A DNA stretch of 48,598 bases from Streptomycetaceae bacterium (lineage in GTDB: Bacteria; Actinomycetota; Actinomycetes; Nanopelagicales; Nanopelagicaceae), in contig QYPG01000026.1 of NCBI GenBank assembly GCA_007279945.1, positions 1-48,598 of the forward strand, written 5' to 3'. Each line of letters begins with the position of its first letter. Within the stretch, counting starts at the first letter, position 1. The notes beneath the pieces are model-generated. The model searched no databases and was not told the origin of the DNA. It was given only the letters and a program-made list of their open reading frames with translations. This document shows, one piece after another, positions 13,707-27,219 of the stretch. The position numbers and the translations under genes are program-made.

Positions 13707-14447
13707 TTAATACTTAATTCGCTCCCACCCTGGACGGGCTTTACGGTTACCCGCAATGCCGCGACCATCTCGCGTGCGATAGACAATAGATGGGCGGAAT
13801 AAATACCCCACTGGCGCACTTAATGAATGTACTAAGCGAGTAAAGGGCCAGATTATAAATAGAGACATTCCAATCACTGCATGAACCCTAAAAGCAATTG
13901 GACTGGCCATCATCAGCTCTCCATTGGGACTAAGTGTAAGAATCGATCGAACCCATGGTCCAACAGTTTCACGGTAGTTGTGCTCTTCACCAATGACTCC
14001 GGCACTCGATAGCGTTGCCGCACTGCCAGCCAAAAGTGTTGCTACAAGAAATACATACATTGTCTTATCGTTCTTCGTCGTTTGTGCAAAAACCATTGCC
14101 GTAGTGCGGCGACGATAAATGAGAAGCGTTATCCCAACAAGTGTTGCAATTCCAGCGGCGCCACCCAAAGTGACTGCACCAAGGTGATAAGCCTCGTGGC
14201 TTAAGCCAAGAGAATCAGTGAGAGTTTGTGGAACAAGCAGGCCAACTATATGGCCCCCAATTACTGCAAAGAGTCCTAAGTGAAATAGCGGTCCTGCAAT
14301 ACTGAGCAACTTACCTTCATAGATTTGTGATGAGCGAGTAGTCCAATTGAATTTATCGTATTTGAAACGCCAGACTAAGCCGATCACAAATGATGAGATA
14401 GCTATGTATGGAAATACTGACCATAAAAGGATATTTGTTGAACTCAT
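13707..14447 (-). CDS. narI: Respiratory nitrate reductase gamma subunit (cytochrome b)
   Basis: This 246-aa integral membrane protein has about five hydrophobic segments. Four histidines match the known diheme ligands in position and spacing: H56 and H66 in the second helix region, H189 and H207 near the C-terminus (10- and 18-residue intervals, as in E. coli NarI). It takes electrons from menaquinol at the membrane and passes them to NarH. It overlaps narJ by 4 bases (ATGA) and ends the narGHJI operon before a shared terminator. Confidence 0.95.
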   Translation of the reverse strand: MSSTNILLWSVFPYIAISSFVIGLVWRFKYDKFNWTTRSSQIYEGKLLSIAGPLFHLGLFAVIGGHIVGLLVPQTLTDSLGLSHEAYHLGAVTLGGAAGIATLVGITLLIYRRRTTAMVFAQTTKNDKTMYVFLVATLLAGSAATLSSAGVIGEEHNYRETVGPWVRSILTLSPNGELMMASPIAFRVHAVIGMSLFIIWPFTRLVHSLSAPVGYLFRPSIVYRTRDGRGIAGNRKARPGWERIKY

Positions 14448-15091
14448 CGTGAAACTCCCTCTAGTGAAAAATCTTTATGCGGTGAAAATGGTTCTAAAGC
14501 AACAGCTACCGCGCCACTTAAACCCACGAACTCTTTAGGCGGTCCGGTAATAGCGAGTGCTTTTGCTCTCGCCTCAATCTCAGGCGTCATTTCCGGCAGT
14601 GATTCAACTACGGCATCTAATACATGTGCATACATTGAGCCGCTTTTATGTAAGGCATCTCTGATCAGCAGAATCGGTGCTTGGTGTTCACCAAGAAGTA
14701 GATCTCCCTCTGCAGGATTCTCTAATGCAGCGAACTCAAGTACCACCGCTAAATGATCTGGCAACTCTTCCGGGCTTAGCAAGAGTCCACAACGTTTATA
14801 GATTTCAATGAAGTAGACCAAAGCCATGCCACGATTTCTGGTATCTCCATGCGTCCACGATGTTAGAAATAGTGAACACTTTCTGCGCATGTCAAAGATC
14901 TCGACATAATGCTGCTGCAGTTTATTAAGTGGCATTTCAGCGGCTGTCTTTAGAAACATAAGTAATGGACTGCCAAGCTGTGGATCTAATCTAGATGCCA
15001 GGTGAGCTAGTTCGCCGTTTCGTTCGATGAAGGCCTGCTCTGGATAGACAAGGCACTGTGCAGCGATTGCTCGAGCAATCTCCTTGCTCAC
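14444..15091 (-). CDS. narJ: Nitrate reductase assembly chaperone NarJ (TorD/NarJ family)
   Basis: This 215-aa all-helical protein belongs to the NarJ/TorD chaperone family. The recognisable segment LFLTSWTHGDTRNRGMALV (beginning about residue 74) matches the NarJ core. It helps insert the molybdenum cofactor and Fe-S cluster into NarG before membrane attachment, and is not part of the final enzyme. It overlaps narH and narI by 4 bases each, placing it in the usual GHJI order. Confidence 0.93.
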   Translation of the reverse strand: MSKEIARAIAAQCLVYPEQAFIERNGELAHLASRLDPQLGSPLLMFLKTAAEMPLNKLQQHYVEIFDMRRKCSLFLTSWTHGDTRNRGMALVYFIEIYKRCGLLLSPEELPDHLAVVLEFAALENPAEGDLLLGEHQAPILLIRDALHKSGSMYAHVLDAVVESLPEMTPEIEARAKALAITGPPKEFVGLSGAVAVALEPFSPHKDFSLEGVSR

Positions 15092-16653
15092 TTTGTCTGC
15101 CTATCTTTCATAATATGAAAGTTCTCGATCGTAACGGGAACTGGATTACCCGATGCTTGACCAAAAGGCCCAGAGTTTGGTCCAAGATCAACACCATCTA
15201 GTGAACATCCTGAACTCTGCCCCATATTTTCTAGATCCTTAGCCTGTTCGGCGTGGGCTGCAGGGATTACATAACGATCTTCATACTTTGCAATTGCGAG
15301 TAGTCGGTACATCTCATAAATCGACTCTTGATTCATTCCAACGGCCTCAGGAATCTCTGGACGTGGTTCGCGGCCCAGGTTGATATCCCGCATATACGAA
15401 CGCATTGCAGAGAGTTTACGAAGTGTGGATTCAACGAGTTCAGTATCCCCTGCAGTAAATAGCTCGGCCAGATAAGCAAGTGGAATACGTAGGGCATTGA
15501 TTGCCCCAAAGAGATTGCCGGCATCTTCACCATCGTGACCGGTCTCGGTCAGCACATCCACGATTGGAGACAGTGGAGGTACATACCAAACCATTGGCAT
15601 CGTGCGATATTCAGGGTGCAATGGCAGGGCGATCTTGTACACCTTTGCCAACTTATATACAGGTGAGTTTTGAGCCGCGACTAACCAATCCTCTGGAATA
15701 CCTTCGGCGCGTGCAGCGGCAAGAACTTCTGAGTCATGTGGATCTAACATCAGATCGAGTTGAGCTTGATATAAATCCTTTTCATTCTCGGTTGCAGCTG
15801 CCTCTGCTACACGATCTGCGTCATAGAGAAAGAGACCTAAGTAGCGAAGTCGGCCAACGCATGTTTCAGAGCAAACTGTTGGTAGGCCAATTTCAAGACG
15901 TGGATAGCAGAGCGTACATTTTTCTGCTTTACCTGTTTTGTGATTGAAATAGACTTTCTTATACGGACATGCCGAAACACACATACGCCATCCGCGACAC
16001 TGCTGCTGATCGACTAAAACGATTCCATCTTCGGCGCGCTTATACATCGCACCCGATGGGCATGCAGCAACACATGCAGGGTTTAGACAGTGCTCGCAAA
16101 TACGTGGAAGGTAAAACATAAAAGTCTGCTCAAAAGCTAGCTTCACTTTTGTTGTTACATCTTCGGCTAGTTTTTTAAGTATTGGATCTTTCTCAATATT
16201 TTCAGGTCCTCCGCCTAAATCATCATCCCAGTTGGCCGACCATTCAATCTTCATAGGTTTGCCAGTGATAAGTGATTTCGGGCGGGCAACAGGAGTCTGT
16301 TGTCCCAGTGGAGCTGTAATTAAATTGTCGTACTCGTACGTCCAAGGCTCGTAATAATCCTTGATGTTGAGCATGCGCGGATTTGAAAAGATTGAAAGTA
16401 AACGACGTGCGCGACTGCCCGCCTTTAAGCGAAGTCGTCCTCGAGAAGTTCGTACCCAGCCACCTTTAGCTTTCGCTTGATCTTCATATCCGCGTGGATA
16501 TCCCTGCCCAGGGCGGGTCTCGACGTTGTTAAACCATGCATACTCAAGTCCGGTGCGATTAGTCCACGCCTGCTTACACGTTACTGAGCATGTATGACAC
16601 CCGATGCATTTATCGAGATTCATCACCATGCCCATTTGGGCCATGACCTTCAT
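15088..16653 (-). CDS. narH: Respiratory nitrate reductase beta subunit (Fe-S)
   Basis: This 521-aa electron-transfer subunit carries four Cys clusters: C16-x2-C19-x2-C22-x3-C26 (CIGCHTCSVTC); CEHCLNPACVAACP; CRGWRMCVSACP, where Trp replaces one Cys, as expected for the [3Fe-4S] centre; and KCTLCYPRLE with a later CSETC. It relays electrons from NarI heme to the NarG active site on the cytoplasmic face. The length is typical. The start follows the narG stop with a 1-base overlap, and it overlaps narJ by 4 bases. Confidence 0.97.
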   Translation of the reverse strand: MKVMAQMGMVMNLDKCIGCHTCSVTCKQAWTNRTGLEYAWFNNVETRPGQGYPRGYEDQAKAKGGWVRTSRGRLRLKAGSRARRLLSIFSNPRMLNIKDYYEPWTYEYDNLITAPLGQQTPVARPKSLITGKPMKIEWSANWDDDLGGGPENIEKDPILKKLAEDVTTKVKLAFEQTFMFYLPRICEHCLNPACVAACPSGAMYKRAEDGIVLVDQQQCRGWRMCVSACPYKKVYFNHKTGKAEKCTLCYPRLEIGLPTVCSETCVGRLRYLGLFLYDADRVAEAAATENEKDLYQAQLDLMLDPHDSEVLAAARAEGIPEDWLVAAQNSPVYKLAKVYKIALPLHPEYRTMPMVWYVPPLSPIVDVLTETGHDGEDAGNLFGAINALRIPLAYLAELFTAGDTELVESTLRKLSAMRSYMRDINLGREPRPEIPEAVGMNQESIYEMYRLLAIAKYEDRYVIPAAHAEQAKDLENMGQSSGCSLDGVDLGPNSGPFGQASGNPVPVTIENFHIMKDRQTK

Positions 16654-19600
16654 TAGTACTCCACATCTTGTGAACGTCGTCGGATAACAGTGATTTCATC
16701 ACGCTGATTACCAGTTGGTCCTAGGTAATTAAATGCGAATGTCAGCTGTGCATAGCCACCAATAAGGTGCGAGGGTTTTATCATTAAACGTGTCAGTGAG
16801 TTATGAATTCCTCCACGCTTGCCCGAAGTCTCGGCCAAGGGAACATCTACAACTCGATCTTTAGCGTGATACATAAAGACTGTGCCAGCTGGCATACGGT
16901 GCGAAACACATGCACGCGCAACAACTACTCCGTTACGGTTATATGCCTCGATCCATTCGTTGTCTTTGACTCCGATAGTCTCAGCATCCTCAACACTCAT
17001 CCAAATCTCTTGGCCTCCACGTGAAAGTGAGAGCATAAATAGATTGTCTTGGTACTCAGAGTGAATTGACCATTTAGAGTGCGGTGTTAAGTATCGAACC
17101 GTGACCTCTTTTTCAATGCCATCGCCTTGGTTTCCAAAGATGCGATGCATATTTAATGGCGGTCTAAAGATTGGCATCTGCTCGCCGAGCTCACTCATCC
17201 AATCATGATCAATAAAGAAATGCTGTCTGCCCGTCAAGGTGTGCCATGGTTTTAAGCGCTCAACATTTATTGCAAATGCGGTGTATCGCCGGCCGCCATG
17301 TTCAGAGCCTGACCATTCAGGACTTGTGATTACCGGAACAGGCCTGGCCTGAGTATCGGCAAATGTAATTCGCTTACCTTCATTATCTAGAGCTAAGTCA
17401 GTTAGTTGCTGGCCTGTGCGTTTTTCTAACGCCCTAAAGCCTGCAACTGCGATACGCCCATTGGTTGTGCCAGAGAGTGCGAGGATCGTTTCGCAGGCAT
17501 CTACATCGCGAGCAAGTGATGGCCGGCCTTCGGCGATTCCATGAGATATAACGCCATTTTTATGACGTAAAACTTCAATCTCTGGCAGAACACTAACTGG
17601 TACGCCCTTCGTATTAGTGCCCAACTGATCAAGTAAGGGCCCCAGGGCTCCCATTTTTTCACCTAGCTGGGTGTAGTCGCGTTTGACCACAACTAACTTC
17701 GGCATTGTTAGACCAGGAATCGGCTCTATATTTCCATCTTTCCAATCCTCAACAATGCCACTTGGATTTGCCATTGCATCGGGGGTGTCATGTAAAAGTG
17801 GAACAACAACAATGTCTTCACGTTCGCCTAAATGTCCCTTCGAAACTTCGGCAACTTGGCGCCCCAGCATCTGGAAGATGTCGTAGTCGGTCTTTGTCTC
17901 CCATGGTGGATTAATCGCTGGTGTGAATGCGTGAACAAAGGGATGCATGTCAGTACTTGATAGATCGTGTTTTTCATACCACGTGGCCGCCGGTAATAAA
18001 ATATCTCCAAATAATCCAGTACTTGTCATTCTAAAATCGATAGAGACGAGCAAATCCAACTTACCTTCTGGTGCCTCCTCTTGCCACTTCACATCTCGCG
18101 GTCTTGCATCAGGAGCGTTTTCTTCGGCACGTACAGAGTTATCGGTACCCAGTAAATGCTTGAGGAAGTATTCATTACCCTTACTTGAAGAGCCGAGAAT
18201 ATTTGCGCGCCATACAGTTAAGACGCGTGGCCAGTTTTCTGGTGCATCGGGATCTTCTATTGCAAACTTTAGATTTCCATTTTTTAACTCGGTGACGACG
18301 TGAGCTGAAGGCTCTACACCTAGTGCGCGAGCTTCATCAGCTAAATCTAACGAGTTGCGATTAAGCGATGGGTAAGAGGGCATCCAACCCATGCGTGCCG
18401 ACTTTGCCATAACATCAATGGCGCTCATGTTTTCAAAGCGTTTTTCACCAAGAGGTGTTGCAAGGAGCTCTGACTTTAATCCGTCATAGCGCCATTGATC
18501 CGTTGATACATACCAAAAAGCTGTTCCAATCATCTGGCGTGGTGGCCGTGCCCAGTCAGCGCCAAAGGCTAACTGCGCCCATCCAGTTACGGGACGACAC
18601 TTTTCTTGACCTACGTAGTGCGCCCAACCGCCACCGTTAACGCCTTGGCAGCCCGTTAATGTAACTAGGGCTAAGAATGTTCGGTACATAGTGTCAGAGT
18701 GGAACCAGTGATTAGTTCCGGCTCCCAGAAGAATCATTGAACGACCTTCAGATTCATCAGCATTTTGTGCAAACTCTCGCGCAATACGAATCACTTGAGC
18801 TGCCGGAACATTTGTAATCTCTTCTTGCCATGCCGGTGTGTATGGGGTCGTGTCGGTGTAATCAGTTGGCCAATCACCTTCTAGACCTTCGCGACCAACT
18901 CCATATTGAGCCAGCATTAGGTCGAAGACTGTTGTGACTTTTTTATCGCCAATGTGAATAGTTGGAACACCGCGATGGAGTACTCCGCCACTCTCTGATT
19001 CCTTTTGCCCCATGTCAAAGCGTGGAAGCAAAATCGGTGCGGCCGAGGCATCTGATCGCCCATAAACAGTAAGTGAAGGATCAACGCCTTCTAGATCTAA
19101 ATTCCATTTACCCATCGAATCATCGTTGTAGCGATGACCTAATGAGCCGTTAGGGATATATGTGTTGCCGTTTGCAGAATCCAGTACCACGGTCTTGAAC
19201 TTTGAACCCTCCGATGTGTCACCTAGATCTGATGCAACAAGGAACTTATCCGGCACCCAAGCACCATCTTTTTCACGGAGTGAGACTAAATATGGAAGGT
19301 CTGTGAACTTCTTTACATAATCAGTAAATCGTGGAGTTTGTTTGTCAACAAAAAACTCCTTCAAAATAACGTGTCCCATTGCCATGCCAAGTGCGCCATC
19401 TGTGCCTGGATGTGGTGCAACCCATTCATCGGCAAACTTTGTGTTGTCGGCATAATCTGGGCTAATTGCAATTACTTTTTGCCCGCGATAACGAGCTTCA
19501 GTCATGAAGTGAGCGTCGGGTGTGCGTGTTACTGGAACATTTGAGCCCCACATAATTAAGTAAGAAGCATTAAACCAATCGGCAGATTCAGGTACATCAG

Positions 19601-20336
19601 TTTGATCGCCAAAAACTTGAGGTGATGCAACGGGAAGATCGGCATACCAATCATAAAATGAGAGCATCGAGCCGCCCATTAATGAGATGAAGCGAGCACC
19701 TGCTGCATGGGAAGCCATTGACATAGCTGGAATTGGAGAGAAACCAAAGACTCGATCAGGGCCATACTTCTTAATTGTGTGCACGTGTGCAGCTGCAATG
19801 ATTTCAGAGATCTCACCCCACTGTGCACGAACTAATCCACCTTTTCCGCGCGCTTTTTGATACATGCTTCTGCGAATTGGATCATCCATGATGTCGGCCC
19901 ATGCCAATACCGGATCGCCGAGACGTGACTTTGCTTCTCTATACATGTCCAATAGAAGTCCGCGAACATATGGATATCTAATTCGAGTTGGAGAATATGT
20001 GTACCAAGAGAATGCAGCTCCGCGAGGACATCCACGTGGCTCATACTCGGGTGAATCTGGACCAACGGATGGATAGTCAGTTTGTTGTGACTCCCACGTG
20101 ATGATTCCATCTTTTACATAAACTTTCCATGAGCAAGACCCCGTGCAGTTAACGCCATGTGTGGAACGAACTACTTTGTCATGGCTCCATCGATCACGAT
20201 AGAAATCATCACCCTCGCGACCACCACTCTTTGTGATTGATCGAAGATCATCGGAGACAACTCCCTTAGAAAAATATCTTCCAAGTTTGACAAGTGATTC
20301 TTCGATATCTATTTCAGAGAATTTATCGCGTTTCAT
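16653..20336 (-). CDS. narG: Respiratory nitrate reductase alpha subunit (molybdopterin)
   Basis: This 1227-aa catalytic subunit of membrane-bound nitrate reductase reduces nitrate to nitrite with bis-MGD molybdenum. The FS0 cluster ligands are H60, C64, C68 and C103, with the same spacing as E. coli NarG (H-x3-C-x3-C-x34-C). The Mo-ligand region SFYDWYADLPVASP is present, with the Asp in YADLP the expected ligand. I start at ATG 20336 (MKRDKFSEID); the open frame reaches a TTG at 20369, but that TTG overlaps a good -10 box. Cofactor synthesis genes and a nitrite reductase are absent from the window, so the fate of nitrite is unknown. Confidence 0.97.
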   Translation of the reverse strand: MKRDKFSEIDIEESLVKLGRYFSKGVVSDDLRSITKSGGREGDDFYRDRWSHDKVVRSTHGVNCTGSCSWKVYVKDGIITWESQQTDYPSVGPDSPEYEPRGCPRGAAFSWYTYSPTRIRYPYVRGLLLDMYREAKSRLGDPVLAWADIMDDPIRRSMYQKARGKGGLVRAQWGEISEIIAAAHVHTIKKYGPDRVFGFSPIPAMSMASHAAGARFISLMGGSMLSFYDWYADLPVASPQVFGDQTDVPESADWFNASYLIMWGSNVPVTRTPDAHFMTEARYRGQKVIAISPDYADNTKFADEWVAPHPGTDGALGMAMGHVILKEFFVDKQTPRFTDYVKKFTDLPYLVSLREKDGAWVPDKFLVASDLGDTSEGSKFKTVVLDSANGNTYIPNGSLGHRYNDDSMGKWNLDLEGVDPSLTVYGRSDASAAPILLPRFDMGQKESESGGVLHRGVPTIHIGDKKVTTVFDLMLAQYGVGREGLEGDWPTDYTDTTPYTPAWQEEITNVPAAQVIRIAREFAQNADESEGRSMILLGAGTNHWFHSDTMYRTFLALVTLTGCQGVNGGGWAHYVGQEKCRPVTGWAQLAFGADWARPPRQMIGTAFWYVSTDQWRYDGLKSELLATPLGEKRFENMSAIDVMAKSARMGWMPSYPSLNRNSLDLADEARALGVEPSAHVVTELKNGNLKFAIEDPDAPENWPRVLTVWRANILGSSSKGNEYFLKHLLGTDNSVRAEENAPDARPRDVKWQEEAPEGKLDLLVSIDFRMTSTGLFGDILLPAATWYEKHDLSSTDMHPFVHAFTPAINPPWETKTDYDIFQMLGRQVAEVSKGHLGEREDIVVVPLLHDTPDAMANPSGIVEDWKDGNIEPIPGLTMPKLVVVKRDYTQLGEKMGALGPLLDQLGTNTKGVPVSVLPEIEVLRHKNGVISHGIAEGRPSLARDVDACETILALSGTTNGRIAVAGFRALEKRTGQQLTDLALDNEGKRITFADTQARPVPVITSPEWSGSEHGGRRYTAFAINVERLKPWHTLTGRQHFFIDHDWMSELGEQMPIFRPPLNMHRIFGNQGDGIEKEVTVRYLTPHSKWSIHSEYQDNLFMLSLSRGGQEIWMSVEDAETIGVKDNEWIEAYNRNGVVVARACVSHRMPAGTVFMYHAKDRVVDVPLAETSGKRGGIHNSLTRLMIKPSHLIGGYAQLTFAFNYLGPTGNQRDEITVIRRRSQDVEY

Positions 20337-20367
20337 GTGCTCAGTCTCTCGCGCATGCCTGCTCGTC

Positions 20368-20395
20368 AATATAGGTACAAAGACCCTATTTTCAA
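20368..20395 (-). promoter_or_regulatory. Candidate narG promoter
   Basis: Leftward TTGAAA (20395-20390) and TATATT (20373-20368) are separated by 16 bp, with the narG ATG at 20336. The spacer contains an imperfect dyad (20372-20388). Confidence 0.5.
20372..20388. promoter_or_regulatory. Imperfect dyad in the narG-narK intergenic region, possible DosR-like box
   Basis: Read leftward, TAGGGTCTTTGTACCTA has symmetric ends (TAGG/CCTA) and a GGG-x-CTTT half resembling the DosR box half-site. A DosR-like regulator is encoded 4 kb away. Only about 9 of 14 core positions match the consensus as I recall it, so this is weak. Confidence 0.28.
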
Positions 20396-20446: not shown

Positions 20447-21763
20447 ATGTCACAACGTAATGGTTCAGGGCGAGTGCTAGCACTTTCAACATTCGCATTT
20501 ACTTTGATGTTTGCAGTGTGGTTAATGTTCGGAGTTCTTGGTATTCCGATTCAAAAAGAGTTCGGAATTTCAGACTCACAACTTGCTTGGCTATCATCAG
20601 TTGCAATCCTTAACGGCTCAATCTGGCGATTGCTTTTAGGTGTTCTTGCAGATCGAATTGGTGGAAAAAAAGTAACAGTAGTTATGTTGCTCGTTACCTC
20701 AATTCCTGCATACCTTTTGGCACATCTCGAACTCACTTACACATGGTTGCTCGTTTTAGCTTTCTTTGTTGGCTTTGCGGGAAATCTATTTAGCGTTGGA
20801 ATTGCATGGAACTCTCACTGGTTTGATCGCAGTCGCCAAGGCTTTGCCCTGGGTGTTTTTGGCGCAGGAAATGTTGGGGCATCTGCAACAAAATTCATTG
20901 GTCCAGCGGTAATCGCTAGCACAATTGGCGGATCCTACTTAGGTGGAATCATCCCTGGCGGATGGCGCTTTGTTCCAGCACTGTATTCAGTCCTTCTTGT
21001 AATTACCGCATTTGCAATCCTATTTTTCACACCTGCAGACTCTGAGAATTTGCAAACCTCTAGACCTCTACGTCAGATGTTTGCACCTTTGCGGTATCTA
21101 CAGGTGTGGAGATTTAGTTTCTACTATGTTGTCGTCTTCGGTGCTTATGTTGCACTGGCTTCATGGATGCCAAAATACTATGTCTCAGTTTATAACTTGA
21201 ACTTACATGATGCAGCCCTTTTAACTGCTCTTTTCATTTTCCCTGCATCCTTACTTCGGCCACTCGGTGGATACATTTCCGACAAGATCGGGGCGCGTCG
21301 TTTAATGTACGCAACATTTATCACAATGCTCATTGCACTGCTTTTTCTAGCAGCACCATTTGGATACATTGTTTTGAATACACCAACAGGCAGTAAGAAT
21401 GTTTTACCGTATCACTTAGGTGTAATGCCTTTTACGGCTCTCTTATTCATTGTTGGCTGCTCAATGGGAATTGGTAAGGCCGCCGTTTTTAAGCACATCC
21501 CTGAATATTTCCCCAACGATGTTGGCGCAGTTGGTGGCTTGGTGGGAACGCTCGGCGCACTGGGCGGATTCTTATTGCCTCCACTTTTCGTCTCAGTTAA
21601 AGATTGGACTGGACTGCCTCAATCCACCTTCGTTGTACTTTTTCTGTTGACTTTGGCAGCAACGATCTGGATGCACGTTGTAGTTGTAAGAGTACTTAAT
21701 CAAGCTAACCCATCCCTCAAGCATCAAATCGATTATCTACGCCCACAAATGAATGGAGATTAA
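20447..21763 (+). CDS. narK: Nitrate/nitrite MFS transporter, NarK1-like
   Basis: This 438-aa protein of the NNP branch of the major facilitator superfamily has about 12 membrane segments. The nitrate signature region reads FAGNLFSVGIAWNSHWF followed by GVFGAGNVGASATKF, and the inter-helix motif GVLADRIGGKK is present. The lack of the FFP-QG form found in its neighbour suggests the NarK1 (nitrate-proton symport) type. AAGGAGAATTC precedes the ATG. It diverges from narG over a 110-bp gap, with a TAGGAT -10 hexamer at 20421-20426 but a poor -35, which would fit activator-dependent transcription. The subtype is an inference. Confidence 0.9.
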   Translation: MSQRNGSGRVLALSTFAFTLMFAVWLMFGVLGIPIQKEFGISDSQLAWLSSVAILNGSIWRLLLGVLADRIGGKKVTVVMLLVTSIPAYLLAHLELTYTWLLVLAFFVGFAGNLFSVGIAWNSHWFDRSRQGFALGVFGAGNVGASATKFIGPAVIASTIGGSYLGGIIPGGWRFVPALYSVLLVITAFAILFFTPADSENLQTSRPLRQMFAPLRYLQVWRFSFYYVVVFGAYVALASWMPKYYVSVYNLNLHDAALLTALFIFPASLLRPLGGYISDKIGARRLMYATFITMLIALLFLAAPFGYIVLNTPTGSKNVLPYHLGVMPFTALLFIVGCSMGIGKAAVFKHIPEYFPNDVGAVGGLVGTLGALGGFLLPPLFVSVKDWTGLPQSTFVVLFLLTLAATIWMHVVVVRVLNQANPSLKHQIDYLRPQMNGD

Positions 21764-21764
21764 A

Positions 21765-23093
21765 ATGTCTACACAGAAGGTTAAATCCTCAGAGTGGTTG
21801 GAATCTTGGGATCCCAACGCTGAAGGTAAGTGGGAGTCCACAATTGCTTGGAAGACCTTATGGGTAACAACGTATGCGCTAACCCTTGGCTTCATGAGTT
21901 GGTTCTTAGTGTCAGCCCTTGCGCCAAAGCTCAATAACTTAGGCTTTGATCTATCGAAAAAAGAGCTCTACTGGCTAGCTGCAATGCCAGGCCTTGCAGG
22001 TGGAGGACTACGTTTAATCTGGATGTTCCTCCCCCCAATTCTTGGAACCCGCAAATTAGTAACGTACTCAACGTCGCTACTTCTACTGCCACTTATCGGT
22101 TGGTCGTTTGCGGTGCGCTCACCTTCAACACCTTATTTTGCTCTGCTCATTCTTGCCTTCTTCTCTGGAATCGGTGGCGGTGTTTTCTCTGGGTTTATGC
22201 CAAGTACGTCCTACTTCTTCCCTAAATCAAAACAGGGACTAGCTCTTGGAATTCAAGCCGGCGTTGGCAACTTTGGAGTAAGTATTATTCAATTCTTTAC
22301 GCCAATTATCGTAGGCTCAGCAATGTTTGGTGCAACCCTTGGTGCTCCACAACATTTCGTAGACAAAGTTAAAGGCATTGATAAATCTGTGTGGTATCAA
22401 AATGCTGGTCTTGTCTGGGTGCCTTTTGTAATTATTTCAGTCATACTTTCATGGGTCTTTTTAAAGAGCGTGCCGGTGACTTCTCGGGGTGTCAAAGATC
22501 AACTAGATATTTTCAACAATAAGCACACCTGGTTAATGACCGTTCTTTACTTTATGACTTTTGGAACTTTCTCAGGCTTTTCAGCTCAATTTGGTTTATT
22601 AATCAAGAACCTCTTCGGTGAATTCGCTAATGCGCCGGATCCAGTTAAATATGCATTCTTCGGCCCTCTTGTAGGTTCGGCGGCTCGCGTAATCAGCGGA
22701 CCGATTGCAGATCGCTTAGGTGGAGGAATTCTTACCTTCTTCTCGGGAATCGGTATTGCCGCATCGGCAATCTTTACATCGACTCAATTAACACCCGGTA
22801 GCAGCGATGACTTTATGAAGTTCTTCTGGGGCATGATGGCCATCTTCTTCTTTGCTGGAGTTGGAAATGCAAGTACTTTCAAACAGATGCCAATGATCTT
22901 TGAGCCTCGTCAAGCAGGAAGTGTTATTGGGTGGACGGGTGCCATCGCAGCTTTTGGTCCCTTCATCTTTGGAGTTCTGCTCTCAATGATGGCTCCTGCG
23001 GGCTTTTTCCAAGGGGTCGCACTCTTTGCTGTAGTCGGCACATGCATCGCCTGGTGGTTCTATACGCGCAAAGAGGCTGAGGCGCGAAGCTAA
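21765..23093 (+). CDS. narK: Nitrate/nitrite MFS transporter, NarK2-like
   Basis: This second NNP transporter is 442 aa from ATG 21765, chosen because GGAG lies 6 nt upstream; an earlier ATG at 21753 would overlap the previous gene and its own ribosome site. The signature region GFMPSTSYFFPKSKQG then GIQAGVGNFGVS matches the E. coli NarK/NarU type, usually a nitrate/nitrite antiporter. The first cytoplasmic motif region is short and the N-terminus is hydrophilic (about 40 aa). With the preceding NarK1-like gene it forms a symporter plus antiporter pair, which in some bacteria is a single fused protein. It is followed 36 bp later by the sensor kinase. Confidence 0.9.
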   Translation: MSTQKVKSSEWLESWDPNAEGKWESTIAWKTLWVTTYALTLGFMSWFLVSALAPKLNNLGFDLSKKELYWLAAMPGLAGGGLRLIWMFLPPILGTRKLVTYSTSLLLLPLIGWSFAVRSPSTPYFALLILAFFSGIGGGVFSGFMPSTSYFFPKSKQGLALGIQAGVGNFGVSIIQFFTPIIVGSAMFGATLGAPQHFVDKVKGIDKSVWYQNAGLVWVPFVIISVILSWVFLKSVPVTSRGVKDQLDIFNNKHTWLMTVLYFMTFGTFSGFSAQFGLLIKNLFGEFANAPDPVKYAFFGPLVGSAARVISGPIADRLGGGILTFFSGIGIAASAIFTSTQLTPGSSDDFMKFFWGMMAIFFFAGVGNASTFKQMPMIFEPRQAGSVIGWTGAIAAFGPFIFGVLLSMMAPAGFFQGVALFAVVGTCIAWWFYTRKEAEARS

Positions 23094-23129: not shown

Positions 23130-24233
23130 ATGGATGTCACCCGGCTTAGCGCACTCTCCGATGCTGTTATGGATGTCGCTAAGGGCGAAGACTTAAAGAC
23201 TTCACTCAAGCGGCTCATTCATAACGCTGTTCTCATTACCGACTGCACTTATGGTGCTCTTGGTTCAATTACTCCTGATGGCACACTTGAGGATTTCACA
23301 TACGTAGGCATGAGTGATGAAACTGCCGATGAGATAAATACTTTTCCTGAAGGTAAGGGCCTTCTTGGCCACTTACTTAAATTTCCAGCACCACTTCGTG
23401 TGTCAGTTATTCAAGATCACCCATCCTCGGTTGGTTTTCCCAAGGGACACCCTTCCATGTCGGGTTTTTTAGGTGTTCCGATTCGCATTCGTGAGGAGCT
23501 GTACGGCAGTATTTATTTGACTCAAAAACGCAATGGTGAAGATTTCACGCAAGAAGATGAAGAGCTTGTTGTCGTTTTAGCATCTGCCGCTGGAATCGCA
23601 ATTGATAGCTACCGGGGGCACATTGCACGTAATCAAGTAGGAGTTCTGGCTGAACGGGAACGTATTGCTCGTGACTTACATGATTTAGTTATTCAGCAAC
23701 TATTTGCATCTGGAATATCCCTGCAATCAATTGCCGCCGATGCATCTATCCCAGTGCAATCACTAGCAAAGATTAACGATATTTTAGAAAATCTAGATTC
23801 AACGGTTCAGCAGATTAGAACGACTATCTTTGCCCTTCACAATGACCACCCAATTCAGAATGTCCGCACATTAGTCCTTGGCGAAATTGCATCTCTGTCC
23901 TCAATCGCTGGCTTCCAAGTGACACACTCGTATATAGGACCAGTAGATACAGTCATTAACCCAGATCTTGCACGAGAAGTGATTCCAGTCATTCGCGAAC
24001 TTGTCACTAACGCGATTCGCCACGCAGAGGCAACTTCTATCGATTTAGTAGTAATGGCCAATCAAACATACTGTGAAATTAGAGTCGTTGATAATGGCAA
24101 AGGTTATGTACCTAGTGAGCGAAAGAGTGGTCTTCTCAACCTTGAGCAACGCGCATTGGCCAGAGGTGGAGAGTTTGAAATTACTAAAGATGGCTCATCG
24201 GGCACCCGAGCGATGTGGCGTGGAAGTCTTTAA
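23130..24233 (+). CDS. GAF-domain sensor histidine kinase, DosS/DevS-like
   Basis: This 367-aa soluble kinase has one GAF domain (about 20-160), a HisKA_3 dimerisation helix (ERIARDLHDLVIQQLF, phospho-acceptor H184) and a HATPase domain (N294 in the N-box, DNGKGY at 321-326). The GAF domain resembles mycobacterial DosS GAF-A. H107 (GHPSM) and Y129 (SIYLT) lie 22 residues apart, matching the proximal heme His149 and Tyr171 of DosS, so it may bind heme and sense O2, NO or redox. DosS has two GAF domains; this has one. It follows narK2 by 36 bp and converges with a DosR-like regulator, overlapping it by 4 bp. No clear ribosome site was seen. Confidence 0.88.
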   Translation: MDVTRLSALSDAVMDVAKGEDLKTSLKRLIHNAVLITDCTYGALGSITPDGTLEDFTYVGMSDETADEINTFPEGKGLLGHLLKFPAPLRVSVIQDHPSSVGFPKGHPSMSGFLGVPIRIREELYGSIYLTQKRNGEDFTQEDEELVVVLASAAGIAIDSYRGHIARNQVGVLAERERIARDLHDLVIQQLFASGISLQSIAADASIPVQSLAKINDILENLDSTVQQIRTTIFALHNDHPIQNVRTLVLGEIASLSSIAGFQVTHSYIGPVDTVINPDLAREVIPVIRELVTNAIRHAEATSIDLVVMANQTYCEIRVVDNGKGYVPSERKSGLLNLEQRALARGGEFEITKDGSSGTRAMWRGSL

Positions 24234-24871
24234 CTTCTGCCAACGCTTAAACGAACCGCCATTGCAGCAGCCTGTGTTCGACGCTCCAAACCTAGTTTTC
24301 TTAGAAGAGACGAGACGTAGTTCTTAACAGTCTTTTCAGCCAAGAACATATTCTTTGCAATCTCCCGGTTAGTCATTCCCTCACCGATGAACTCAAGAAC
24401 TCGCTGTTCCTGATCGGTGAGCTCATAAATCTCACTTGCTGGATTCTTGTTTTCGCGAAGGCGATTAGTAACTGAAGAGATTAACTTCGTATCGAGGAAA
24501 CTTTCGCCAGATGCAACTTTACGAATAGATGCAAGAAGTTCAAGGTTCTTAATATCCTTAATCAGGTAGCCAGAGGCACCGCCAAGGACTGCACCAAGAA
24601 GAGCCTCATCATCTTGAAAGGACGTCAGCATTAAAACCTTTACTTTGGAATTAATAGAGATTAACTCTCTACATAACTCAATTCCATTTCCATCGGGAAG
24701 CCGCACGTCTAATACTGCAATATCGGCATCTACTGTCACAAAATGAAAAAGTGCGTCAGCAACATTTGCCGCACTGCCCACAACGGATAAGTCAGCTTCG
24801 GCATCAATGAGATCAATTAAGCCCTTTCGAACCAGCTCATGATCATCGACTACAAATACTTTAGTTGGCAC
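24230..24871 (-). CDS. NarL/DosR-like response regulator
   Basis: This 213-aa regulator has a receiver domain (D9/D10 acidic pair, phospho-acceptor D55, T83, K105) and a LuxR-type HTH (about 148-213). The recognition-helix region KTVKNYVSSLLRKLG is almost the same as the mycobacterial DosR sequence I recall, so a similar DNA site is plausible. It is the likely partner of the convergent DosS-like kinase, with which it overlaps by 4 bp. It starts inside the end of the DUF2249 gene (11-bp overlap), so it is translated from that mRNA. Its likely targets are the nar genes; this is inferred from position. Confidence 0.92.
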   Translation of the reverse strand: MPTKVFVVDDHELVRKGLIDLIDAEADLSVVGSAANVADALFHFVTVDADIAVLDVRLPDGNGIELCRELISINSKVKVLMLTSFQDDEALLGAVLGGASGYLIKDIKNLELLASIRKVASGESFLDTKLISSVTNRLRENKNPASEIYELTDQEQRVLEFIGEGMTNREIAKNMFLAEKTVKNYVSSLLRKLGLERRTQAAAMAVRLSVGRS

Positions 24872-25187
24872 GGCTAACTTCTACCGTGCTTCGGATAAAT
24901 TCAATGTGCCACTTATCGGGACCCTCATCGAGAAAGTTGACCGAATAAGCACCTGGGTGCATCTTTTCAATCTGGGCTAAGAGCGGAATTGGCTTGTGGG
25001 GTGCAACTAAAACCATTCCTTCTCCAACCTTGAGTGATTCAAGGGCACCGAAAATTGCTGGGTGACGAATCTCGTGAGGAATAAGCGTTGCATCGAGCTC
25101 TGGGTATGTCGATGAACTCTCTTCACCGCAACGACATGAATGAGATCCTGCATTTTCTGGAGCCTGAGTGATTGAGATAATTTCCAT
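24861..25187 (-). CDS. DUF2249 domain protein
   Basis: This 108-aa protein contains a DUF2249 domain (LDATLIPHEIRHPAIFGALE, then GEGMVLVAPHKPIPLLAQI), a small TusA-like fold often found beside nitrate, nitrite or NO metabolism genes. The biochemical role is not established. An N-terminal CRC motif (C18, C20; SHSCRCGEES) and a His near it could bind metal, an inference. The ATG is preceded by TAGGGT with 6 nt between, so a leaderless mRNA is likely. It is cotranscribed with, and overlaps, the response regulator. Confidence 0.8.
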   Translation of the reverse strand: MEIISITQAPENAGSHSCRCGEESSSTYPELDATLIPHEIRHPAIFGALESLKVGEGMVLVAPHKPIPLLAQIEKMHPGAYSVNFLDEGPDKWHIEFIRSTVEVSRAN

Positions 25188-25284: not shown

Positions 25285-25686
25285 CTACGCCCCAGTTGTT
25301 ACGGGCGAATTTTCTAACACGCGCCACTCTTCATCAGTGAATAACCGCGACCTTGTAAGAAAGCGTTTTCCCTCTGTCGACTCGAGGGAAAACCCTCCTC
25401 CTCTTCCATCTACAACATCAATAGTTAAATGCGTGTGCTTCCAGTATTCAAACTGAGTTGCAGACATCCATACGCGAATCGCTTCTTCAACTCCTTCAAT
25501 AACTAATTCGCCGACTAAAACATCAGAGCCACCAACTCTAAACTCACCTTTCAAATAACACATAGGCGATGATCCATCACAACAACCACCTGATTGATGA
25601 AACATTAGCGGACCATTTATTTTTGTTAACTTGAGTAATAGCTCTGCCGCCTCGGGTGTGTAATCAACGCGGGACGGCAGAGACAT
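25285..25686 (-). CDS. DUF779 family protein
   Basis: This 133-aa protein matches DUF779, a small family usually encoded next to AcoD/ExaC-type aldehyde dehydrogenases. The conserved core is LMFHQSGGCCDGSSPMC (residues 28-44), with three Cys (C35, C36, C44) and a His that could bind a metal or cofactor, an inference. It starts 9 bp after the aldehyde dehydrogenase stop and is surely in the same operon. Its biochemical function is unknown; a role in maturing or assisting the dehydrogenase is suggested only by the linkage. Confidence 0.82.
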   Translation of the reverse strand: MSLPSRVDYTPEAAELLLKLTKINGPLMFHQSGGCCDGSSPMCYLKGEFRVGGSDVLVGELVIEGVEEAIRVWMSATQFEYWKHTHLTIDVVDGRGGGFSLESTEGKRFLTRSRLFTDEEWRVLENSPVTTGA

Positions 25687-25695
25687 TAGTACTCC

Positions 25696-27219
25696 TTAAA
25701 AGAAGCCGAGCTTGTTTGGTGAGTACGAAACAAGCAGGTTCTTAGTTTGTTGGTAATGATCAAGCATCATCTTATGGTTCTCGCGGCCGATTCCAGAGGC
25801 TTTGTAGCCACCAAATGCAGCTCCAGCTGGATAAGCGTGATAGCAGTTAGTCCAGACACGACCAGCTTGGATAGCTCGGCCTGCGCGATAAGCGGTATTC
25901 ATATCGCGTGTCCATACACCTGCACCTAGACCGTACAAGCTGTCATTGGCAATCTCAATGGCATTATCGAAGCCATCGAACTTTGTAACTGAGACAACTG
26001 GACCGAAGATCTCCTCTTGGAAGATGCGCATCTTGTTATGGCCTTCAAAGATAGTAGGCATAACGTAGTAGCCACCGGAAAGCTCGCCGCCCAAATCTGC
26101 GCGCTCACCACCCGTGATTACCTTTGCGCCCTCTTTCTTACCAATATCTAGGTAGGAAAGAATCTTTTCTAACTGATCTGTGCTGGCTTGTGCACCAATC
26201 ATCGTAGAAAGATCCAATGGGTGTCCCTGCTTAATCGCATTGGTGCGTGCAGTGACATCACCTAAGAATCGATCGTAGATTTTGGTATCGATCAAACCGC
26301 GCGAAGGGCAGGTGCAGACCTCACCCTGGTTGACGGCAAACATCGTGAAGCCTTCAAGTGCCTTGTCATAAAAGGCATCGTCTTCGGCAGCAACATCACC
26401 AAAGAAGATATTCGGACTTTTGCCACCGAGTTCAAGGGTGACAGGAATAATGTTCTCTGATGCATACTGCATAATCAAGCGGCCTGTTGTGGTTTCACCT
26501 GTGAATGCGATCTTGGCAATGCGTGGAGAAGATGCCAATGGCTTACCGGCTTCGACACCAAAGCCGTTAACGATATTAACAACACCATCTGGCAAAAGGT
26601 CTTTGATGATATCCATCAAGAACAAGATCGATACTGGAGTCTGCTCAGCTGGCTTTAGTACGACGCAGTTACCTGCGGCGATTGCTGGAGCTAACTTCCA
26701 TACTGCCATCAATATTGGGAAGTTCCACGGAATAATTTGGCCAACTACACCCAGTGGTTCGTGGAAGTGATAGGCGACAGTGTCATTGTCCAGTTCGCCA
26801 GCTGATCCTTCTTGCGCACGGATAGCTGCGGCAAAGTATCTAAAGTGATCGATTGCAAGTGGAATATCTACATAGAGCGCCTCACGAACTGGTTTTCCGT
26901 TTTCCCATGTTTCGGCAACTGCTATGGCTTCAACATTTGCCTCCATGCGATCGGCAATTTTGTTAAGAATAATTGCGCGTTCAGTTGCAGATGTCTTACC
27001 CCATGCAGGAGCTGCAGCATGTGCTGCATCAAGTGCCTTATCAATATCTTTAGCATTTCCACGTGCAACATCACAGAAAACTTTTCCAGTTACTGGAGTT
27101 ACGTTTTCAAAGTACTGACCTGAATCTGGCTTTTCATACTTGCCATTAATCCAATGGTCATAACGAGGTAGATATGTAACTTTGCTTCCGGGTTGGCCGG
27201 GAGCGATGAAATCAGTCAT
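25696..27219 (-). CDS. NAD-dependent aldehyde dehydrogenase (AcoD/ExaC/AldB type)
   Basis: This 507-aa enzyme carries the family Glu region [12 protein letters not shown] and the catalytic Cys in [12 protein letters not shown], a CTCPSR form characteristic of the acetaldehyde dehydrogenases AcoD, ExaC and AldB. The NAD-binding [17 protein letters not shown] segment and the [11 protein letters not shown]-terminal motif are intact. It oxidises acetaldehyde or similar short aldehydes to acids. GGAGAAGAA precedes the ATG. A palindrome (27237-27254) between the -10 box and the start suggests regulation. It is followed by its usual DUF779 partner. No alcohol dehydrogenase is nearby. Confidence 0.93.

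Follow-up and report, generated by a model that had tools for sequence, protein, structure and literature searches.

The window analysed here, a stretch of 48,598 nucleotides from a Streptomycetaceae bacterium placed in the Nanopelagicaceae (contig QYPG01000026.1), carries on its minus strand the genes for the respiratory nitrate reductase, namely the alpha subunit narG (16653..20369, with a start probably at the ATG near 20336), the beta subunit narH (15088..16653; TIGR01660 over its cut-off), the assembly chaperone narJ (14444..15091; TIGR00684 over its cut-off) and the gamma subunit narI (13707..14447), the last assigned from its position after narGHJ and its match to the narI of relatives. 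Two nitrate/nitrite MFS transporter genes, narK1 (20447..21763) and narK2 (21753..23093), follow on the plus strand, and narK2 ends 36 bases before the ATG of a gene for a DosS/DosT-like single-GAF sensor histidine kinase (23130..24233, plus strand, 367 aa), an open reading frame present as first described. The kinase gene is met convergently by the 3' end of a gene for a NarL/DosR-type response regulator with a receiver and a GerE domain (24230..24871, minus strand), and the start of the regulator gene is overlapped by the end of an open reading frame for a DUF2249 protein (24861..25187, minus strand), with which it is probably co-transcribed. The DUF2249 gene is conserved across most of the genus, though not in other genera. 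Beyond this operon, a DUF779 gene lies beside an aldehyde dehydrogenase-like gene (25285-27219). The intergenic region between narG and narK1 contains a DosR-box-like palindrome, TAGGTMYWAAGACCCTA (20371-20391), with the core AGGTACAAAGACCC (20373-20386).

Across 296 genomes of the family the kinase was found in 29 and narG also in 29, with both present in 26 (Fisher p 9e-31, a value that assumes an independence the genomes do not have). Three genomes have the kinase only: in G153 and G278 the contig stops within narK1 or narK2, and in G160 it breaks off within the kinase gene itself; the regulator occurs in the same 29 genomes as the kinase and additionally in G050. The gene order narG< >narK1 narK2 kinase> <regulator is constant wherever the contig allows, with the exception of G265, and at each of the 25 loci measured 36-56 bases separate narK2 from the kinase. 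In about 29 of the 296 genomes the genes for the kinase and the regulator are grouped with narGHJI and both narK genes in a single conserved cluster. The link to nitrate respiration, which the sequence-only reading had proposed for this kinase beside the nitrate reductase, is strongly supported by this synteny and co-occurrence and by the conserved DosR-like box discussed below. A search of the literature on nitrate reductase in this order found nothing on its regulation. In G265 there were no narK matches, and a DUF2249 match lies where the narK genes usually sit. The title of the public record CAMBDL010000002.1 (locus L033), Streptomyces griseus, is apparently a mistake: the kinase that it encodes has 96% identity to the one in this family of small genomes.

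Pfam assigns to the kinase a GAF domain (residues 21-159; 23190..23609, plus strand), a HisKA_3 domain (175-238) and a HATPase_c domain (285-332), the last two as in DosS and DosT. The phospho-accepting residue is His184 within HisKA_3, invariant in the homologue alignment, and the ATPase domain matches 8sbm (E 9e-16) and 3zxo (E 1e-15) in a phmmer search of PDB sequences. Both Pfam and a profile search found a single GAF, against two in DosS/DosT, so the simpler architecture described from the letters alone was correct; a search of the window genome for a further DosS-like kinase returned this one match in all. The single-GAF architecture is real, yet it is neither new in itself nor unique to the lineage of the window. 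Single-GAF kinases with DosR-like neighbors are present in other actinobacterial families too, and those at loci L074-L086 have full-length identities of 35-43%, share the His and the Tyr of the window GAF and lie near a DosR-like gene, with no nar genes within their flanks (about 10 kb on each side at most). NreB is a sensor with a four-Cys Fe-S PAS domain, and NarX and NarQ are membrane nitrate sensors; with these the window kinase has in common the HisKA_3 kinase superfamily and a predicted role in the control of nitrate respiration. Unlike NreB, its GAF holds one Cys (Cys39), which is not conserved in relatives, and Fe-S sensing of the NreB kind was rejected for want of a cluster of conserved cysteines.

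The top PDB match of the kinase was the DosT GAF-A domain (2vzw, E 8e-40), followed by DosS GAF-A entries (E 1e-35 to 8e-37, including 2w3d at E 1e-35), and phmmer aligned the GAF with the GAF-A of both proteins without a gap. The AlphaFold model of the kinase, built on a 27-sequence alignment (mean pLDDT 80; pTM 0.47, so that domain packing is uncertain), superposes with residues 21..166 on residues 63..208 of DosS GAF-A (Z 25.8, rmsd 1.2 A over 146 residues). As the offset is constant at 42, H107 (CAC, 23448-23450) corresponds to DosS His149, Y129 (TAT, 23514-23516) to Tyr171 and G45 to Glu87. The alignment to DosS GAF-A, the placing of H107 at the proximal His and that of Y129 at Tyr171 across a 22-residue interval had all been claimed in the sequence-only reading, and all of them stand, no other residue being placed at the ligand position. 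Among the 50 structure matches listed, GAFs other than those of DosS/DosT reached Z 20 or lower, compared to about 25 for the DosS/DosT heme GAFs; NreA was not among these 50, which excludes nothing. Judged from sequence and predicted fold, the match is one of homology and not of chance.

His149 was identified as the heme ligand of DosS by mutation, the H149A variant losing the spectrum of His-ligated heme, and Tyr171 is needed to discriminate O2 from CO and NO (PMC4082495). Their counterparts in the window kinase, H107 and Y129, do not vary among 27 homologues (36-96% identity) and are kept in heme-auxotroph and heme-prototroph carriers alike. H107 is the only strictly invariant histidine of the GAF, as H31 and H81 are variable and H97 is missing in one case. 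All members of this actinobacterial GAF clade that were sampled, whether they have one GAF or two, contain the GHPxM-FLGVPIR-LYLT stretch or a near match to it that retains the His and Tyr, and being clade-wide it does not by itself single out the window kinase; the second GAF of two-GAF kinases gave only marginal profile matches among the matches listed. The conservation of the His and Tyr is consistent with a clade-wide heme site and is not proof of one. The overall interpretation first offered, a heme-based sensor controlling nitrate respiration, is partly supported, with heme binding by the GAF a prediction from homology. DosS Glu87 is Gly85 in DosT, and a stable oxy complex has been reported after replacement of Glu87 by Gly or Ala; laboratories disagree on the autooxidation of DosS (PMC4082495). 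The window kinase has Gly45 at this position, like DosT, and the glycine is kept in 26 of the 27 homologues, which makes a DosT-like O2 (hypoxia) sensor likelier than a DosS-like redox sensor and favors assignment of the putative heme GAF to the former type.

The sequence-only reading did not mention the partner of the kinase, the conserved box or the apparent lack of heme synthesis genes. The best PDB match of the regulator is DosR itself (3c3w, E 1.3e-66), with 110 of 208 residues identical (53%) and a DNA-binding domain that is nearly the same; 31 of 40 residues of the helix-turn-helix region are identical, the stretch MFLAEKTVKNYVS is shared and the recognition helix is DosR-like. The box is near-invariant in 24 of 24 intergenic loci (mean column identity 0.94 versus 0.58 in the surrounding intergenic bases); a perfect GGGTCTAAAGACCC palindrome is present at this position in G034, G032 and G269, and the left arm of the window copy is half-degraded. 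Exact matches to GGTNNNAAGACCCTA numbered 29 in the 296 genomes, 23 of them at narG promoters; most of the genomes searched have no exact match other than the narG site. The box goes with the regulator, because G050, which belongs to another genus and has a regulator of 57% identity, carries AAATAGGGGCTAAAGACCCTATTT at its narG promoter, and G041, which has narG and no regulator match, has no box-like site in its nar cluster; the association rests on related genomes, not on independent events. The canonical Mycobacterium tuberculosis DosR motif GGGACTTNNGNCCCT showed no enrichment in the window, where 20 sites were found for 24 expected, and at nar no site was found with 3 mismatches allowed, only the variant box being present there. 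The M. tuberculosis DosR box, which we take to be GGGACTWWAGTCCC, has the same layout as the nar box, and GGGTCT-WW-AGACCC differs by one base per half-site from GGGACT-WW-AGTCCC, presumably the M. tuberculosis form. The nar box belongs to a wider DosR-like type, a conserved GGGNCN-WW-NGNCCC palindrome that lies at a target promoter and tracks the regulator.

A precedent exists in Streptomyces coelicolor, where OsdK/OsdR (DevS/DevR) controls the nar2 nitrate reductase operon (PMC5069765; PMC9739842). The nar box resembles both the OsdR consensus AGGGCCGATCGGCCCT and the nar2 site AGGGACCTTCGGCCCC (PMC5069765), and the two systems share a DosS/DosR-type pair, a respiratory nitrate reductase operon and a DosR-like palindrome (PMC5069765; PMC9739842). 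Unlike OsdK/OsdR, which serves a broad stress and development regulon, the pair described here sits inside the nar cluster. The principle of nar control by a DosS/DosR-type pair is already known from OsdK/OsdR and nar2; what is new here is that the architecture is reduced, that there is a single conserved box, that the pair lies within the nar cluster, that the host is apparently auxotrophic for heme and that G050 has lost the GAF.

In G050 the kinase of the nar cluster (locus L112, 12248-13090) has 280 aa, and its would-be GAF of about 80 residues is without the His and the Tyr; its gene comes after narI and is again downstream of the box. This one genome keeps nar, the regulator and the box despite the loss, and the retention of regulator and box with a GAF-less kinase implies that the sensor domain is not indispensable. 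HemH (PF00762), HemB (PF00490) and HemE (PF01208) had no match in the window genome (92% complete, so that its absences rest partly on the relatives), and of the 15 other kinase-bearing relatives tested 10 are without all three, among them several genomes of 98-100% completeness, and five have them. The window genome, like many of its relatives, appears unable to make heme, and heme auxotrophy is reported in Planktophila (as cited in PMC12381374). A heme-copper oxidase was present in 11 of 11 genomes checked, from which it follows that these genomes use heme and must obtain it.

Starting from what was observed, that is, the homology and residue positions, the invariance of H107 and Y129, the DosR-like regulator, the conserved cluster and the box that tracks the regulator, we propose, with a probability of roughly 0.7, that the locus encodes a local two-component switch devoted to nitrate respiration and made of a heme-GAF kinase, a DosR-like regulator and the nar box. 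Heme binding, O2 as the signal, the box as the site of the regulator and activation rather than repression are the parts of this proposal that we infer. The single GAF would bind heme b via H107, with Y129 on the distal side; bound O2 would keep the kinase off, and the departure of O2 (or the binding of NO) would trigger autophosphorylation at His184, from where the phosphate would pass to the convergently encoded regulator. The regulator would then bind the palindrome between narG and narK1 and raise expression of narGHJI on one side and of narK1, narK2 and the kinase on the other. The kinase closely follows narK2, so the promoter at the box probably drives it too, and judging by the spacing narK1, narK2 and the kinase may be one transcript; the kinase would thereby amplify its own supply in a positive feedback, with the regulator expressed from its own side.

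The signal could instead be mainly NO or redox state, with a heme-binding, DosS-like GAF answering to nitrogen oxides from nitrate reduction rather than to O2. DosS and DosT bind NO and CO, both of which turn DosS on (PMC4082495), and the nitrite that the nar cluster makes is a source of NO; against this, Glu87, the bulk of which is linked to DosS autooxidation, is Gly here as in DosT, and no nitrite or NO reductase gene was recognized among the window open reading frames read, so that we regard this as unlikely. It is more doubtful still that the GAF has given up heme binding and senses nitrate, like the GAF protein NreA, or only a protein signal, its His and Tyr being kept for the fold. The clade-wide His/Tyr motif, the lack of heme synthesis genes in most carriers tested, the GAF-less kinase of G050 and an operon that serves nitrate would all fit such a GAF, but H107 as the sole strictly invariant histidine and an equally invariant Y129, in auxotrophs and prototrophs, speak for a retained heme site, as does the structural comparison, in which the heme GAFs of DosS/DosT (Z about 25) lie far ahead of other GAFs (20 or lower).

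That the box belongs to another regulator, for example of the Crp/FNR or Rex type, and that the two-component pair controls other genes is very improbable: the one-base departure per half-site from the presumed M. tuberculosis consensus would allow it, but the geometry is DosR-like, the box is present with the regulator in G050 and absent with it from the G041 cluster, and the narG site stands as the only exact match in most genomes searched. An extension of the proposed switch, which we put forward only as a speculation, is that the kinase is also a gate on heme supply, so that switching on narGHJI would require both a shortage of O2 and a supply of scavenged heme. The heme-less H150A DosS of M. 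smegmatis has no kinase activity (PMC4082495), and if the apo-kinase were likewise inactive narGHJI would wait for heme. Such a gate, if true, would suit NarI, which needs heme, and by losing the GAF the kinase of G050 would have found a natural way around it.

The proposed switch shares with DosT and DosS/DevS of M. tuberculosis a homologous GAF-A with the proximal His and the distal Tyr in register. The kinase and regulator genes are convergent here instead of lying in one operon; apparently one main promoter takes the place of the large dormancy regulon of DosR, its box departs by one base in each half-site, and the host seems heme-auxotrophic. DosS/DosR, known from tuberculosis dormancy, seems to have been cut to its smallest working form, with one GAF, one regulator, one promoter and one job, which offers a simple system in which to ask what the second GAF does, how the heme-O2 signal reaches the kinase and where the DosR circuit originated. 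It also raises the question of how a cell apparently without heme synthesis keeps a heme sensor loaded. The host probably turns nitrate respiration on once O2 runs out, and the arrangement suggests how streamlined freshwater actinobacteria may decide when to respire nitrate.
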